Positions 2,122 to 34,929 of a stretch of 41,094 nt of DNA are shown piece after piece. The notes beneath the pieces were generated by a model. That model was not told the origin of the DNA, ran no database searches, and saw nothing but the letters and a program-made list of their open reading frames with translations. How positions within the stretch are numbered: the stretch's first letter is position 1; each line of letters begins with the position of its first letter. Position numbers and translations under genes: made by a program. The stretch is from a virus. The DNA lies in the IMG/VR virus record IMGVR_UViG_3300032181_000394, positions 1 to 41,094 of that record. The stretch is one strand, 5' to 3'.

Positions 2122-2922
2122 TTATCCGATCATATCCATTGGTGGAATAGCATACTTGCTGAGAACTTCTGATTCGATTTTCTCAATTTCTGCTAGAGCG
2201 TCGGTATATAATTCTCTTCCATTGAGGGTGATACCACCAGGCAACTGAACATTGTTATACTTAATCAAGTTCTGACCCCACTGCTTCTTCATAAGAGCAG
2301 TAGCATACTTCTTGACAAACATATCATTATACATCTCAGTTGCATCTGAAGGATCAATCATACGATGACATTCAATCAGAATGTTAGATCCATTCTTGAG
2401 GAAGTCTTTGTCAAGATCCATATAGAGACGATCACGACGCGCTGTAAATCTGAACTGTTGGAATGAACCATTGTTCAGAACCATATCTAGAGTTTCTAGA
2501 TACTGCTTAGTCATATAATAGTTGAGAATATCAAGTGACCCAAATGCATATAGATCATTAAGGAACAGTTGATACTCAACACCAAAAAGATTAGAACGGA
2601 TTGAGTTACTAACGAGACCAAATACTTTCGTAATACCAGTTACATGAGCTGGAATTGGAATGTAGTTGGTTGTTTCTTTCCAGTCAGTTGTGCCATTACT
2701 AGTTGTTACACTAGCAGCAAACCTCGTTTTGTCGTCAGCAGTGATTTCGTGGAATAGATATGCACGCTCCATACCGTTATAGCAGTTCTCTTGGAAGAAC
2801 TGAAACGTATCATCAATAACGTTGTTTACCTGTTCGTCGTCAATATTAACTTGTAGGACAGGTTCACCCAACTGTCTCTTACAATAAGTTATGAGATCAG
2901 CTCTTGAGTTTGGAGATGCCAT
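2122..2922 (-). CDS. 13: gp13 neck protein
   Basis: This 266-aa protein corresponds to T4 gp13 (309 aa), the neck protein that binds the portal and closes the filled head before the tail attaches. The N-terminus MASPNSRADLITYCKRQLG followed by VNIDDEQVNNVIDDTFQFFQE is the hallmark of cyanophage gp13, as is the later ILIECHRMIDPSDATEMYND. I chose ATG at 2922 rather than the TTG at 2931, because the protein family starts at MASPNSR and TTG would only add three residues. The likely ribosome binding site AGAAGGGA lies about 13 nt upstream, inside the right arm of a strong terminator-like hairpin. Followed after 1 nt by gp14. Confidence 0.92.
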   Translation of the reverse strand: MASPNSRADLITYCKRQLGEPVLQVNIDDEQVNNVIDDTFQFFQENCYNGMERAYLFHEITADDKTRFAASVTTSNGTTDWKETTNYIPIPAHVTGITKVFGLVSNSIRSNLFGVEYQLFLNDLYAFGSLDILNYYMTKQYLETLDMVLNNGSFQQFRFTARRDRLYMDLDKDFLKNGSNILIECHRMIDPSDATEMYNDMFVKKYATALMKKQWGQNLIKYNNVQLPGGITLNGRELYTDALAEIEKIESEVLSKYAIPPMDMIG

Positions 2923-2929
2923 TACACAC

Positions 2930-2967
2930 AAAAAATCCCTTCTTACCTATTTAGGAAGAAGGGATTT
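2930..2967 (-). terminator. Strong intrinsic terminator after the 68-aa gene; overlaps gp13 RBS
   Basis: On the minus strand, 12-nt arms at 2956-2967 and 2933-2944 (AAATCCCTTCTT / AAGAAGGGATTT) are perfectly complementary. The inner part can pair further as CCTA/TAGG, and the right arm runs into six T residues. This is the form of a Rho-independent terminator. It sits 6 nt after the stop of the 68-aa gene and 7 nt before the gp13 ATG, and its right arm holds the purine-rich AGAAGGGA that should serve as the gp13 ribosome binding site. It could therefore stop incoming transcripts, block gp13 translation, or both. Confidence 0.8.
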
Positions 2968-2969
2968 AG

Positions 2970-2977
2970 TATTTATT
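2970..2977 (-). promoter_or_regulatory. T4-type late promoter for gp13-gp16 (AATAAATA)
   Basis: The minus strand reads AATAAATA, one base off the T4 late consensus TATAAATA and fitting the NATAAATA form used by cyanophages. It overlaps the TAA stop of the 68-aa gene and lies just upstream of the terminator hairpin. T4 late transcripts start several bases after this box, so initiation would fall within the first arm of the hairpin and trim it. It is the best candidate for late expression of the neck and terminase genes. Confidence 0.6.
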
Positions 2978-3179
2978 CTACTACTTCAGTAGGTGCTGCT
3001 TCTGCTGGAGGTTCCTCAGTCCCATCACCTTCTGATAGAATCCTTAGAGTTTCTAGACCACCAAGTAGTTTGGTGCGATACTCATTCGCTTTTGCTAGGT
3101 TTTCTTGTAGTTCATCAATTTGCTTCTCTGCGTCAGCAAGTTGCTTTTCAAAATTTTCTTTGAGTTGTGTCGAATCCAT
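2973..3179 (-). CDS. Small coiled-coil protein, 68 aa
   Basis: The product starts MDSTQLKENFEKQLADAEKQ and continues with heptad-patterned leucines and charged residues to about residue 48, predicting a helical coiled coil. It ends in an acidic, proline/alanine-rich tail (EGDGTEEPPAEAAPTEVVE). I recognise it as a small protein often found before gp13 in T4-like cyanophages, but no function is known to me. A multimeric coiled coil beside the neck genes could stand where T4 carries the fibritin gene wac, but at 68 aa it lacks a fibritin head domain; this is speculation. The gene has its own perfect sigma70 promoter upstream and an intrinsic terminator downstream. There is no clear Shine-Dalgarno sequence before the ATG. 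Confidence 0.75.
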   Translation of the reverse strand: MDSTQLKENFEKQLADAEKQIDELQENLAKANEYRTKLLGGLETLRILSEGDGTEEPPAEAAPTEVVE

Positions 3180-3184
3180 AGTTA

Positions 3185-3196
3185 GAATTGCAATTC
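3185..3196. other. Perfect 12-bp palindrome in 5' leader of the 68-aa gene
   Basis: GAATTGCAATTC is an exact dyad lying 6 nt upstream of the 68-aa start codon and inside the predicted transcript leader. It could be an operator for a dimeric regulator or a chance match in AT-rich DNA. It has no loop, so it is a poor RNA hairpin. Confidence 0.3.
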
Positions 3197-3205
3197 AGTC
3201 AATGA

Positions 3206-3213
3206 TATTTATG
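3206..3213 (-). promoter_or_regulatory. Possible late promoter (CATAAATA) before the 68-aa gene
   Basis: The minus strand reads CATAAATA, one mismatch from the T4 late consensus. It lies 27 nt upstream of the 68-aa ATG and only 3 nt downstream of the -10 box of the sigma70 promoter. The same gene could thus be read by unmodified host polymerase and by the late gp55-type sigma complex. Confidence 0.5.
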
Positions 3214-3216
3214 ATG

Positions 3217-3245
3217 ATTATAAATGATCTTTTTTGTCGTGTCAA
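3217..3245 (-). promoter_or_regulatory. Perfect-consensus sigma70 promoter (TTGACA-17-TATAAT)
   Basis: On the minus strand TTGACA (3240-3245) and TATAAT (3217-3222) are separated by exactly 17 nt, the full bacterial sigma70 consensus. The TGA stop codon of the 1072-aa gene (3242-3244) lies inside the -35 box. The start site would be about 30 nt upstream of the 68-aa ATG. It is the only such site I saw in a gap in this late region. Confidence 0.75.
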
Positions 3246-6200
3246 CCGTAATATATTACTTCGTCAGATTTTCTGACTTTTACACGATCATCGTCAGAAC
3301 CACTTGATGTTCCTTCTAGGTCATGATCCCATGGAGTAACCCAAATATCACTATCTACTGGAATTTCGGTAATCAATCTACCTTCAGAATCTGTAGTCGT
3401 ACCTCTATCAGATTTAACTTTTTCGTCAATTCTTCTGCCGACTACCATCCAAGAAATAGTGTCAGATGATGTTTCATCTTGACATTCGATTGTCAATACA
3501 CCATTTTCAACTCTTCCTCTTACTGCAGACCAACCACTTTCATTTGTAGTAAAACATTGGATATCGCCATTTAGAGCAACAAAAGTTCCCGCAGTCATTC
3601 CAAAGTGTTCATCAATGTTAATTGAAACAGAACCATTTGACAAAGTAGAAGAACCTCTATAGATAAGATCTAACTGTGGACTCTCAACGGTTGCATGTAA
3701 CAAGAAATGTGAGTCTCTTAGGGATTCTAGTGGGTGTTTAATTTGGAAGTTCTTTGTTCCATTTACAGTTAGGTTTCCACTGAACGTGCTGGTTCCATTT
3801 GATTGACCGCAATCAATCTGACCTGCACGAAGTCTTGAATTTCCATCATCTTTATAACCAACATCAGAACAGAAATGCCACGATCCAGGAGCACCATTCG
3901 TTGTGCCATCATTGTGCCAAATATGGTCTACGTTACTATCATCACCACCTCTTGATGTAATGAGAGCATGGTTAGCAAAATAGATCGATCCATTTACATA
4001 AAGATAAATTTCATTAGTTGCATCAGTATATACTGTTGATCCACCGTTGATAGTTACTCTGCCGTCAATGCGACTCTTCATGGATGATGTATTATCATCC
4101 AGATATAGTCCCCATTTGTTAGTAATGATACTTTCTGTTGTAGTTCCGTTGTTTGATCCTAATCTATATGCTCCAGAGAACAAATAGGCGTTTGTCATGG
4201 TTCCGCCATCTGCTCTAATATAACTGTGATGAGCTCGTGCGTTGTTAACAGTTGCTCTATGATTAGTTGAGTTTTCACCACATCTTAAGTATTGATATGA
4301 TCCTCTCATATCATTTGTTCTAGCAGTTCCTCTAGCAGCTGAGAATCCATAATACGCCCAACCTTGGTTAGTATAACAAGTTGAGGAATCATACAATCCA
4401 TTTCTTACTTCAGTATAATATCCCCACTGTCTATCAGATCTACCACCACGATATGCACGGTTATACATGTGATAACCATATAGAGATGGAATATATGCTC
4501 CATAAACATTATAACTATGCCCTCTATATGATTGTGCAGTGCCAGTTCTAGAAACACCCATTCTACGGTTATTTTCATTACCAGTTCGGGTGTAATTGTA
4601 TGTCATGTGAACTGGGCAATAATTTACCCACCCTTTCTGTCTATTAGATTCACCAATCCAAAAATCATTTCTGGACATATAGTGACTGTCAGACCAGTCT
4701 CTATAAATTCTTAAACCACCAGATGATGCATCTGGATATGTATCATTGTTGGAATAGTTGCCACTAATTACTAGTGTTCTTGCTGGGTTTGCTGCGTCAG
4801 ATTTAAAATACCAAGTTCTATACCAGTTCCAACTTACAGATTGAGATGTAGAAGCACTACCACAATCAAAGATAGATGTTCTTATCCATCTTCCAAAACA
4901 ATTGCCTCCTGAAACGTTCGCTGGACCAGTCCATCCCGAAGTATTAATTCTAAGTCTAATCCTTCCATCACCTTGAATTCTATAGACTGATCTCGCTCCA
5001 TCAATACCACCACCAACTCCAGTAATTCTTAATCCTGTTCCGTATTGATAAGCATGTGATTCTCCGTCAGCATTCAGTCCAAGTGTGAGATATACATTGA
5101 CAGTGCTGGCCGTCGCTGGTGCAGTTGTTGGCCAACCAGTTACATTAGTAATTGGGAATGGACCATAAATTCTTGAAACATCATCTGTTAGAATTATTTG
5201 AGATGGAGTTCCTGATGATGTAGTGCCATCACTAGTATTAATAGTGCCATTGTTTCCAGTTATACTAGAAATTGTAAATTCTTTTCCATACCATCTACCA
5301 CCCCATTGACTGCTATTTTCTGGTTTAACATTTGGATATCCGCCTGCAGTGTTATCTGGAACTGTGTTGAGAGTACTTCCTCTATAGAATAATTGATTCC
5401 TGAACCAATAATTTGTTCTGTTGGAAGTATTCCAACTTTCGTAATCAATACGGGCAACATTATTAATATGTGCAGTATTGTTATTATTTCCGTATCTAAT
5501 ACTAGAATTTACAAAAGATGTAGAACTAATACCCCCTTCCCATAATCCAATATGTCCTGGTTTTGAAGGACTTTCATCAGCCTGAGTATCTCTAATTCTA
5601 ATACCACCATCAATTTCTAAAACTGATCTACTATCATTGCCAGTAGAAATATCTTTATTAATACCAACTCTTTCTGCAGATGCATTTAAAATATTGTCAT
5701 CTCCACCTGGACGCAATCTTACATAACCAGCATTCTGACCTTGAACTTGGAATGCTTCTACCGTATCTCCTTCTGCATCTGCTGGAGTTGCAATACCAGT
5801 AAATGGAACTCCACCATCATTAGATCTCATAAAGAATTTTGAGATCCACTGACCACCAGTAGTTCCTAACTGATAACCTTCTGATGGTTGGTTGGATGAA
5901 TATGAAATTGGTCTGATATCGACCATACTACCTGGATTATTTGTGGCAAGACCAAGATCTCCGTTAGCAGTCAACGACATTCTCAGTTGACCTGTTCCGA
6001 GATTACTCAGATTATCTCCACTATCACCAGCATAAAAATCTAGTCTCTGCCCAACACCAAATACATGAGTAGATCCGATGCCAACTGAATATCTATTATT
6101 AATTTCATCTGGAAGTGTAATAGCAGGAGAGTTATCAGTTGGGTTTACATGGAATCTACCTACAGATTTTTTAGTTCCTACTGAAGTAGATCCTGAGAAT

Positions 6201-6460
6201 GGAGATAGTAATACTGTGCCATCTACATTATATGCTAAAACAGGAACACCAGACTCGTCTGTTACAGCAAAAGTTTCATTCGCTGATAAATTATTATCAA
6301 GATTGGAAAGCAGTCCAGCACCACCCTCATATGATAATGAGTTATCATCTTCTACCAGAAGTTTGATTGGAGCATTGTTGAATCCAACAAACGAAATCTC
6401 TGGTTTCGGCTCGGCATCATTATTAGGTGTTATAAGAATATCCTTATCAGTGTTTGCCAT
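3242..6460 (-). CDS. Large tail-fibre-like structural protein, 1072 aa
   Basis: No catalytic motif is visible. The N-terminal half contains fibre-type segments such as VGRFHVNPTDNSPAITLPD and LRMSLTANGDLGLATNNPGS, typical of beta-rich phage tail fibres. The middle (about 4040-4680) is unusually rich in Tyr, Trp, Arg and Asn, for example YRGGRSDRQWGYYTEVRNG, and may be a receptor-contacting region. It is followed by DHIWHNDGTTNGAPGSWHF, a motif common near fibre tips. The C-terminus (from about 3762) has KNFQIKHPLESLRDSHFLLH then VESPQLDLIYRG, a domain also found at the end of the 3658-aa protein. The gene has a GATAAATA box upstream and only a weak ribosome site. It is likely a tail fibre or adhesin; the exact place on the virion is unknown. 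Confidence 0.75.
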   Translation of the reverse strand: MANTDKDILITPNNDAEPKPEISFVGFNNAPIKLLVEDDNSLSYEGGAGLLSNLDNNLSANETFAVTDESGVPVLAYNVDGTVLLSPFSGSTSVGTKKSVGRFHVNPTDNSPAITLPDEINNRYSVGIGSTHVFGVGQRLDFYAGDSGDNLSNLGTGQLRMSLTANGDLGLATNNPGSMVDIRPISYSSNQPSEGYQLGTTGGQWISKFFMRSNDGGVPFTGIATPADAEGDTVEAFQVQGQNAGYVRLRPGGDDNILNASAERVGINKDISTGNDSRSVLEIDGGIRIRDTQADESPSKPGHIGLWEGGISSTSFVNSSIRYGNNNNTAHINNVARIDYESWNTSNRTNYWFRNQLFYRGSTLNTVPDNTAGGYPNVKPENSSQWGGRWYGKEFTISSITGNNGTINTSDGTTSSGTPSQIILTDDVSRIYGPFPITNVTGWPTTAPATASTVNVYLTLGLNADGESHAYQYGTGLRITGVGGGIDGARSVYRIQGDGRIRLRINTSGWTGPANVSGGNCFGRWIRTSIFDCGSASTSQSVSWNWYRTWYFKSDAANPARTLVISGNYSNNDTYPDASSGGLRIYRDWSDSHYMSRNDFWIGESNRQKGWVNYCPVHMTYNYTRTGNENNRRMGVSRTGTAQSYRGHSYNVYGAYIPSLYGYHMYNRAYRGGRSDRQWGYYTEVRNGLYDSSTCYTNQGWAYYGFSAARGTARTNDMRGSYQYLRCGENSTNHRATVNNARAHHSYIRADGGTMTNAYLFSGAYRLGSNNGTTTESIITNKWGLYLDDNTSSMKSRIDGRVTINGGSTVYTDATNEIYLYVNGSIYFANHALITSRGGDDSNVDHIWHNDGTTNGAPGSWHFCSDVGYKDDGNSRLRAGQIDCGQSNGTSTFSGNLTVNGTKNFQIKHPLESLRDSHFLLHATVESPQLDLIYRGSSTLSNGSVSINIDEHFGMTAGTFVALNGDIQCFTTNESGWSAVRGRVENGVLTIECQDETSSDTISWMVVGRRIDEKVKSDRGTTTDSEGRLITEIPVDSDIWVTPWDHDLEGTSSGSDDDRVKVRKSDEVIYYG

Positions 6461-33022: not shown

Positions 33023-34861
33023 TCAGAACTCGATAACTAGCTTGATATCTTCAATCTGGTCAGCAGCTCTAGTGATTAGTCTTCTATTCTCTATGTATAT
33101 GACATCTCCAGAGTTCTGTTCGATTTCTGGAAGAGAAACACCATTGGTGAAACTACCGAATAGGGTATCACTTGCTGCTTGGTTGTAAGTATTGTCGATA
33201 CTTCCATCTGCAAGAGAGGTTTCACCATCAAGGTTTGCAGCAAGAGATTCATCGAATGCTCTTACAACACCGTTGTCTTGGTGATAGTCAACGCTTTGGA
33301 AGATCTTAAGAATACCATTTGGGCTTCCTGCAGCATCTGGAGTCCAGGAAACGACCTGACCTTTTGCAGTTCCACCAGTTACAGCTTGAGTAACGACTTC
33401 ATCTACGATGTAGTCTGCACCTGTTCCAGTGATTCTAAATGCGGTTAGACCATTTAGAGTATCTGCGGTTGCATAAGTTGTAGTTCCTCTCTCGTAAGGA
33501 TCGCGGATAATACCGATTCTACGGAAGTCGTTATCAACAGGGAAGTCACCGAAACCTTCGTCATAAGAGAGACGAATATTGGTCATAACTCGCTTACCAT
33601 TGAGTTCGAGTTCCATGTCTCCACCGTGACCTGCTTGTGGAGGTAGGATAACTTCAACTTTACCAGTTGCACCAGCGTTAACGCTAGCACTTGAAGTTAG
33701 AGCAGCATCGTCAAATAGACCGTATGCAGTTGCACCCGATCCTGTTCCTGTTGCAATTGCGACCGTGCCGTAAGTATAACCCGATCCTCTTTCTTGAACT
33801 ACTGCATTTGTGATCGAACCGCTATCTAGGGTTAGAGCAACAATAGCGCCAGAACCATCGCCATTTACTGGAGCATAATAGGTTCCATTGGTAGCATTGA
33901 TGTTTGAACCAGTATCAGTGGTAATATATGCATCGATAGCACCAACAACAACCTTAGATGCAGTGTCAACTCTGGTTGGGTCGGTAGGAAGAACGATTGG
34001 CAGGAAGTCAGTAGATAGGAATCTTAGAACGTCATCGGTTGACATGGTATACATGAACTTCCACTTATATGTTCCACCAGACTCTTCATAGATGCCTGTA
34101 GCAGAATCATATGTTCCAGCAGAAGGAGTTAGTGAAGGTTCTTCAGTGGATGCTTGACCGTTGAGGTTAGAGAAGTCAGTTCCATTGTAGAGGCACTTGA
34201 ATACCTGATACTGTTGGTTCATGACATAGAACTTTGCTTCGCCAATGGTGTTAGCACCAGTAGCGGACTGAAGACCAACTCTACCTGTTTGAGTTGAGAA
34301 ATAATCTGGTCTCCACATATCATATGTGGTGTTAGTCTGCCAGTTATATCTCTTAATTACAGTTCTTACATAATCATTGGTGATTCTCTTTGCTGCAATG
34401 ATATCATCATATACAGAATACTTCTCTTCTTGGTTGTCTACTGGAAGAGGTGCTGCTTCATCGGTTGCATATCTGTAGATACCGACCTTTGCCTGAGCAC
34501 CACCTGCGGTTTCTAGTGTTTGTCCTACTGTTGGAACACTAGCAACGCCTTGTGTGCCATTGATGTTATAGAGTAGAAGTGAATCTTGGAAAACTTGTCT
34601 TACAATGCCTTTGAATGAACCTGTTGCGTAGTTAGCACCGATGTATACTTCATCACCAACGGCGAAACTACCACCTGATTGAGAATAGATCTCAATGAAT
34701 GCATCCCATCTTTGGGGGCGACCAACGAAGAAGTAAAGTCTCGTCCTTTCGTCACCAACTTCAGGATCACCACCCGACCCCGCTGTAGTGCCTTCGGTTA
34801 AAGACTCGATAAACTGCTTCGCGTTAAAAATTCTAAATTTATCTGAAATAATTGCAGGCAT
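33023..34861 (-). CDS. 8: gp8 baseplate wedge protein, enlarged
   Basis: The product is 612 aa against 334 aa for T4 gp8, a dimeric wedge component of the baseplate. The T4-like parts are the start (IISDKFRIFNAKQFIES, RLYFFVGRPQRWD), the middle (YQVFKCLYNGTDF, YKWKFMYTMSTDDVLRFL) and the end (SGDVIYIENRRLITRAADQ), which parallels the T4 C-terminus HSGEMIYMENRPPIIMAMDQ. Extra material sits in three places: residues about 61-130 (FAVGDEVYIG...), the GSGY unit at about 33690-33960 (ERGSGYTYGTVAIA), and a third module at about 33240-33475 (DEVVTQAVTGGTAKGQVVSW). AAGGA precedes the ATG and a doubled late promoter lies upstream. It is a confident assignment. Confidence 0.9.
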   Translation of the reverse strand: MPAIISDKFRIFNAKQFIESLTEGTTAGSGGDPEVGDERTRLYFFVGRPQRWDAFIEIYSQSGGSFAVGDEVYIGANYATGSFKGIVRQVFQDSLLLYNINGTQGVASVPTVGQTLETAGGAQAKVGIYRYATDEAAPLPVDNQEEKYSVYDDIIAAKRITNDYVRTVIKRYNWQTNTTYDMWRPDYFSTQTGRVGLQSATGANTIGEAKFYVMNQQYQVFKCLYNGTDFSNLNGQASTEEPSLTPSAGTYDSATGIYEESGGTYKWKFMYTMSTDDVLRFLSTDFLPIVLPTDPTRVDTASKVVVGAIDAYITTDTGSNINATNGTYYAPVNGDGSGAIVALTLDSGSITNAVVQERGSGYTYGTVAIATGTGSGATAYGLFDDAALTSSASVNAGATGKVEVILPPQAGHGGDMELELNGKRVMTNIRLSYDEGFGDFPVDNDFRRIGIIRDPYERGTTTYATADTLNGLTAFRITGTGADYIVDEVVTQAVTGGTAKGQVVSWTPDAAGSPNGILKIFQSVDYHQDNGVVRAFDESLAANLDGETSLADGSIDNTYNQAASDTLFGSFTNGVSLPEIEQNSGDVIYIENRRLITRAADQIEDIKLVIEF

Positions 34862-34896: not shown

Positions 34897-34924
34897 GTAA
34901 GTTATTTATATTTATACAACTTAC
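34897..34924. repeat. 7-bp inverted repeat framing the gp8 late promoters
   Basis: GTAAGTT (34897-34903) and AACTTAC (34918-34924) are perfect inverted copies separated by 14 nt that hold the late promoter doublet. It may be a weak hairpin in read-through RNA or a protein-binding dyad. Confidence 0.45.
34903..34916 (-). promoter_or_regulatory. Doubled perfect late promoter (TATAAATATAAATA) for gp8
   Basis: The minus strand holds two exact T4 late boxes, TATAAATA, overlapping by two bases, 42 nt upstream of the gp8 ATG in the 68-nt gap after the gp7-position gene. It is the strongest late promoter in the window and probably drives gp8 and the downstream baseplate/fibre genes. Confidence 0.8.
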
Positions 34925-34929
34925 ACAAA

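Follow-up and report, generated by a model that had tools for sequence, protein, structure and literature searches.

The window, that is, the whole stretch of 41,094 nucleotides that was analysed, carries on its minus strand a small gene with putative control elements of its own, located between a large fibre/adhesin-like gene and the gp13 neck gene. The following features were identified at this locus:

3242..6460, minus strand: fibre/adhesin-like gene (1072 aa) of a variable island, upstream of the small gene; its C-terminal end is replaced in the close relative L005
3244-3242, minus strand: TGA stop codon of this fibre-like gene, inside the -35 hexamer
3240..3245, minus strand: -35 hexamer TTGACA, identical in the close relatives L004 and L005
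3217..3222, minus strand: -10 hexamer TATAAT, separated from the -35 hexamer by a 17-nt spacer and identical in L004 and L005
3206..3213, minus strand: predicted T4-type (gp55) late promoter box CATAAATA; 66/73 homologous loci have an upstream box of the late type
3185..3196, minus strand: perfect palindrome GAATTGCAATTC in the 5' leader, common only to the window, L004 and L005
2973..3179, minus strand: 68-aa gene of the family phrog_580 / T4-GC_834 (profile match), with the conserved motif EYxxKLxGGLETLxLL
2970..2977, minus strand: AATAAATA at the stop codon of the 68-aa gene, found in about half of the homologous loci
2930..2967, minus strand: intrinsic terminator, with a hairpin (2967-2933) and the T-run TTTTTT (2935-2930)
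2948..2955, minus strand: CCTAAATA, a box of the late type inside the loop of the terminator; the gp13 ATG follows 33 nt later
2122..2922, minus strand: gp13, neck protein / head-tail adaptor Ad2, with its ATG at 2922-2920; gp14 and gp15 come next

The 68-aa protein and its gene neighbourhood

An earlier note on this DNA had described a 68-aa coiled-coil gene between a perfect host-type promoter and a strong intrinsic terminator, and all three elements were recovered. The open reading frame is present at 3179-2973, and AlphaFold predicted one single helix for its product (residues 3-50), followed by a low-confidence tail that is disordered and acidic (mean pLDDT 85). The protein matched the profile of phrog_580 (E = 1.1e-15) and no other PHROG; in S-PM2 (S-PM2p095) and its relatives it is annotated as T4-GC_834. 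A Pfam match to Relaxase_C was rejected, being below the cut-off of that family and typical of coiled coils, and the profile search for PDB relatives gave just weak, unrelated helical matches with E-values above 0.1. Among the closest relatives the open reading frame changes mainly at third codon positions, and the Rfam search yielded no match up to E = 1, which argues against the short functional RNA that had been suggested.

The gene is widespread in cyanomyoviruses, where it was found at dozens of loci with a variable fibre/adhesin island on one side and gp13 on the other. Most relatives carry it directly upstream of gp13. S-CAM1 has it at another site, behind a tail-fibre gene; in S-CAM3 it lies ahead of an L-shaped-tail-fibre-assembly gene, and on contig L009 the homolog comes after a gene with a match to a tail-protein family. 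P-TIM40, S-BM3, P-RSM4 and S-RIM2 lack the small gene at this position, and gp13 is directly preceded there by a large structural gene. Taken across the relatives, this pattern points to an association of the gene with the fibre island. For the window copy of the 1072-aa fibre/adhesin-like gene itself, no PHROG or Pfam match was obtained.

Since the gene has an established position beside gp13 and/or the fibre island, a role in virion assembly is favoured over the regulator or anti-host factor proposed in the earlier note, and a fibre/tail assembly function appears likelier than either of these. An anti-host or RNA function found no support beyond the promoter itself. Based on gene context and predicted helicity, the protein probably assists the folding or attachment of trimeric fibres, in the manner of a small coiled-coil chaperone for fibres. 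The tail-fibre chaperone gp57A of T4 is likewise small, helical, of similar length and linked to fibres, a likeness by analogy only: it differs in having no detectable sequence relationship to the 68-aa protein and a different gene neighbourhood, and homology to gp57A (phrog_1002) was rejected at an hhalign probability of 0.9%. A fibre-assembly helper would nevertheless provide a function hypothesis for the widespread protein family phrog_580.

Host-type and late promoters upstream of the 68-aa gene

The TTGACA-17-TATAAT promoter is exact (3245-3217, minus strand). It is the sole exact match in the whole window, did not occur in 100 dinucleotide shuffles, and represents the sole 12/12 site within two scanned 20-kb stretches. 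A chance origin of this host-type promoter is very unlikely, and because it is also kept in two relatives, expression of the gene before the late phase is plausible. The corresponding transcription start is predicted near 3210.

The proposal that the gene is expressed early through sigma70 is therefore supported in part: early expression is plausible, but not control by sigma70 only. Directly downstream of the -10 hexamer and before the start codon lies the late box CATAAATA, which had been missed, with a predicted late start near 3200. The predicted sigma70 start falls inside this box, which would put the two polymerases in competition for one stretch of DNA.

Conservation of the two promoter types was compared over 73 non-identical loci differing in their flanks, the window included, many of which are related contigs and not independent events. 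A late-type box was found upstream of the gene in 66 of them (NATAAATA in 53 and CTAAATA in 13), mostly about 35 nt before the gene start. Within the range of -45 to -20, 65 of 72 loci carried such a box, compared with a mean of 1.4 and a maximum of 5 in shuffled sequences. Among further isolates it was present in four out of six; in the two isolates lacking it, the gene begins 2 nt past the upstream open reading frame. Both sequence and position of the box, about one helical turn upstream of the predicted start, match a T4-type late promoter (NATAAATA or CTAAATA), and both are conserved. Across the window the bare ATAAATA core showed no excess (8 occurrences, 12.7 expected by chance), and single boxes were therefore judged by position and conservation and not by count.

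Identity of both hexamers in related phages, which the earlier note had put forward for checking, was confirmed for L004 and L005, but the perfect sigma70 promoter occurs in just 3/73 loci, namely the window and these two close relatives. Judged by this distribution, the conserved control feature is the putative late box and not the sigma70 promoter, and the gene is best described as a conserved, predicted late gene that has gained a second, host-type promoter in a small lineage.

Searching IMG/VR for sigma70-late-ATGGA in exactly this arrangement gave 33 stretches, of which only those from the L004 and L005 contigs encode the family. When the window, L004 and L005 were compared, none of the 19 motif columns varied, against 8 of the 21 columns between the motifs (hypergeometric p = 0.0026; 0.015 for the sigma70 hexamers alone). 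The 5' leader and the first codons are likewise nearly invariant in these three sequences, so conservation of the hexamers may partly result from recent common descent. In L005 a different sequence has taken the place of the upstream fibre gene's end; nucleotide homology picks up again at window position 3247, right in front of TTGACA. One further homolog of phrog_580, divergent and located on a 116-kb contig (L009:2850-3195), is preceded by TTGACA-17-TATGAT (11/12), with no late box and no gp13 neighbour; this is possibly an independent case of host-promoter control.

Some additional features of this region were observed. The replacement in L005 amounts to a C-terminal exchange of the fibre gene between close relatives (L005:227-2938 versus window 3242-6460) with its junction immediately before the promoter. 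The leader palindrome GAATTGCAATTC is a possible operator or translational control site. In many homologs, e.g. those of L208, L229 and L245, the ATG is preceded by a common leader element, CACACWCYATTCANNGTGATAACT, which lacks a Shine-Dalgarno sequence.

Terminator and late box of gp13

The strong intrinsic terminator described earlier was confirmed at 2967-2930, where a stable stem (-20.4 kcal/mol, z = -5.6) is followed by a T run; the terminator scanner had skipped this hairpin owing to a bulge and to its loop rules. The structure is conserved. In 20 distinct hairpins, 95.5% of the pair cells were standard and four pairs had changed on both sides (13 cells), giving a stem covariation score that was reached by none of 500 shuffles.

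The loop of this terminator contains the late-type box CCTAAATA, and in S-PM2 and Syn1 GATAAATA occupies the same place. A late-type box was present 27-37 nt before gp13 in 64/64 loci with a readable adjoining gp13, at -32 to -37 in all except one locus, where it lies at -27. In L212, L239, L240 and L270 the stem has decayed (5' arm gone) and CCTAAATA is kept, while L209 has an unrelated hairpin followed by a separate TATAAATA. Because the box is kept where the stem is lost or replaced, the comparison indicates that it is under selection of its own, and it represents the probable late promoter of gp13. The hairpin thus ends one unit and probably also starts the gp13 unit. This probable late promoter inside a conserved terminator loop is the best new element at the locus; it suggests that terminator and late promoter are combined in one compact element ahead of the neck genes. 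The AATAAATA at the stop codon of the 68-aa gene is a possible second late box for gp13.

In another part of the window, two overlapping TATAAATA boxes were seen in the loop of a further hairpin (GTAAGTT...AACTTAC, 34903-34925) with no T-run, upstream of a gp8-like baseplate gene (33023-34861). This could be a second case of a late box in a hairpin, or chance.

Proposed regulation and alternative explanations

Drawing on the sequence elements, their conservation, the stem covariation and the gene context, we propose a model that predicts promoter activity, timing, terminator efficiency and protein function. We consider it probable, with reasonable and not strong confidence, that the 68-aa gene is a monocistronic late gene of a T4-like cyanomyovirus for a small helical protein of the fibre/neck assembly region, with an ancestral late box and terminator to which a sigma70 promoter was added. 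The ancestral control would rely on a late box of the gp55 type, some 35 nt ahead of the gene, and on the intrinsic terminator behind it. Unmodified host polymerase would read the gene via TTGACA/TATAAT before gp55 is made, and the late gp55 polymerase would take over afterwards from CATAAATA. Both transcripts would end at 2930, the terminator keeping the earlier transcription out of gp13, and gp13 with the following neck genes would be transcribed from the late box in the terminator loop. Late transcription initiated in the loop is predicted to begin near 2942, about 20 nt ahead of the gp13 ATG. For a fibre-assembly helper, being made earlier than the fibres it serves would be an advantage. 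More tentatively, the two novel aspects may be combined: the terminator loop could serve as the late promoter of the neck operon, one short conserved element closing the fibre-side unit and letting the neck unit restart only with gp55, and the host promoter could have been added in this lineage for early supply of the fibre helper. This combined version is possible, although we hold it with limited confidence.

Three other explanations were considered. The sigma70 match might have little or no function, with the gene expressed late only from CATAAATA and the hexamers kept by chance, descent or some other constraint. Overlap of the -35 hexamer with the TGA stop codon of the fibre gene would fit this, as would the restriction of the site to three related sequences whose surrounding leader is nearly invariant. 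However, chance is not expected to produce a 12/12 site at optimal spacing, and the site is kept in L005 despite the replaced fibre end adjoining it and while positions between the motifs have changed, which makes such late-only expression rather unlikely. We regard as improbable that an early product, either the protein or an RNA of about 280 nt, acts on the host or on regulation independently of virion assembly. The perfect host promoter in a closed unit, as well as the L009 homolog with its 11/12 sigma70 site and no late box, would be in line with such a product, but a late-type box is far more common at these loci than the perfect sigma70 promoter (66/73 versus 3/73), the constant neighbours are gp13 and/or the fibre island, and the Rfam result and the codon-position pattern speak against the RNA version.

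A recently acquired promoter-gene-terminator cassette unrelated to its neighbours, as in the morons of lambdoid phages, would explain why the gene has its own promoter and terminator and is absent from this site in other cyanophage clades. Lambdoid morons likewise sit in a late region with a promoter and a terminator to themselves, whereas the 68-aa gene is a conserved resident with predicted late regulation like that of its neighbours, and neither a compositional outlier nor a recent insertion. It lies beside the same gp13 neighbour at dozens of cyanomyovirus loci, appears to move with the fibre island, and has a near-typical G+C content (41.1%; the window as a whole has 37.8% and the genes next to it 38-40%). 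Assignment to the moron class was rejected on account of this wide distribution, synteny and composition, and the explanation has only a minimal probability.

Comparison with known systems

Overlapping early and late promoters have been described for middle-gene homologues of RB49, S-PM2 and Syn9 (PMC2984593), and sigma70 and gp55 motifs are found upstream of cyanophage psbA (PMC5931967). In this class, formed by T4-like phages without MotA/AsiA, sigma70 -35/-10 elements and a gp55-type box share one upstream region, and both promoter types were likewise found upstream of the 68-aa gene. The predicted arrangement thus resembles ones already known in T4-like cyanophages. The cyanophage genes for which both promoter types have been published belong mostly to the replication/middle or the photosynthesis group (PMC2984593, PMC5931967), and they make 'early plus late' expression a better fit than 'early instead of late'. 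Unlike the RB49, S-PM2 and psbA examples, the present case concerns a small fibre/neck-linked gene within a late structural cluster, and in a small lineage only. By Q-PCR, some S-PM2 genes with T4 middle homologues did not show a middle profile (PMC2984593), which means that sequence alone does not reveal timing. Expression timing in T4-like cyanophages without MotA and AsiA is only partly understood, and the locus offers a clear natural comparison, in which almost the same gene has a conserved late box either together with a perfect host promoter or on its own.

The late boxes agree in sequence and in spacing to the start codon with the late promoters of T4 (TATAAATA; PMC2988020) and of phage Aeh1, for which CTAAATA is the reported late consensus core (PMC1524935), but the gp13 copy differs from these by its location within the loop of an intrinsic terminator. 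Other members of phrog_580 / T4-GC_834 share with the window the homologous protein, usually directly upstream of gp13, the late-type box and the same terminator; unlike the window, they lack the perfect sigma70 promoter.

Among the IMG/VR matches listed, the exact sigma70 plus late tandem was also found before T4-like replication genes (SSB, DNA polymerase, primase, exonuclease and NAD DNA ligase) and before Hsp20 genes. Many of the marine viral contigs listed have this tandem before a short NAD-dependent DNA ligase-like gene (L042, L046, L047, L067, L073, L096, L101, L105 and L140).
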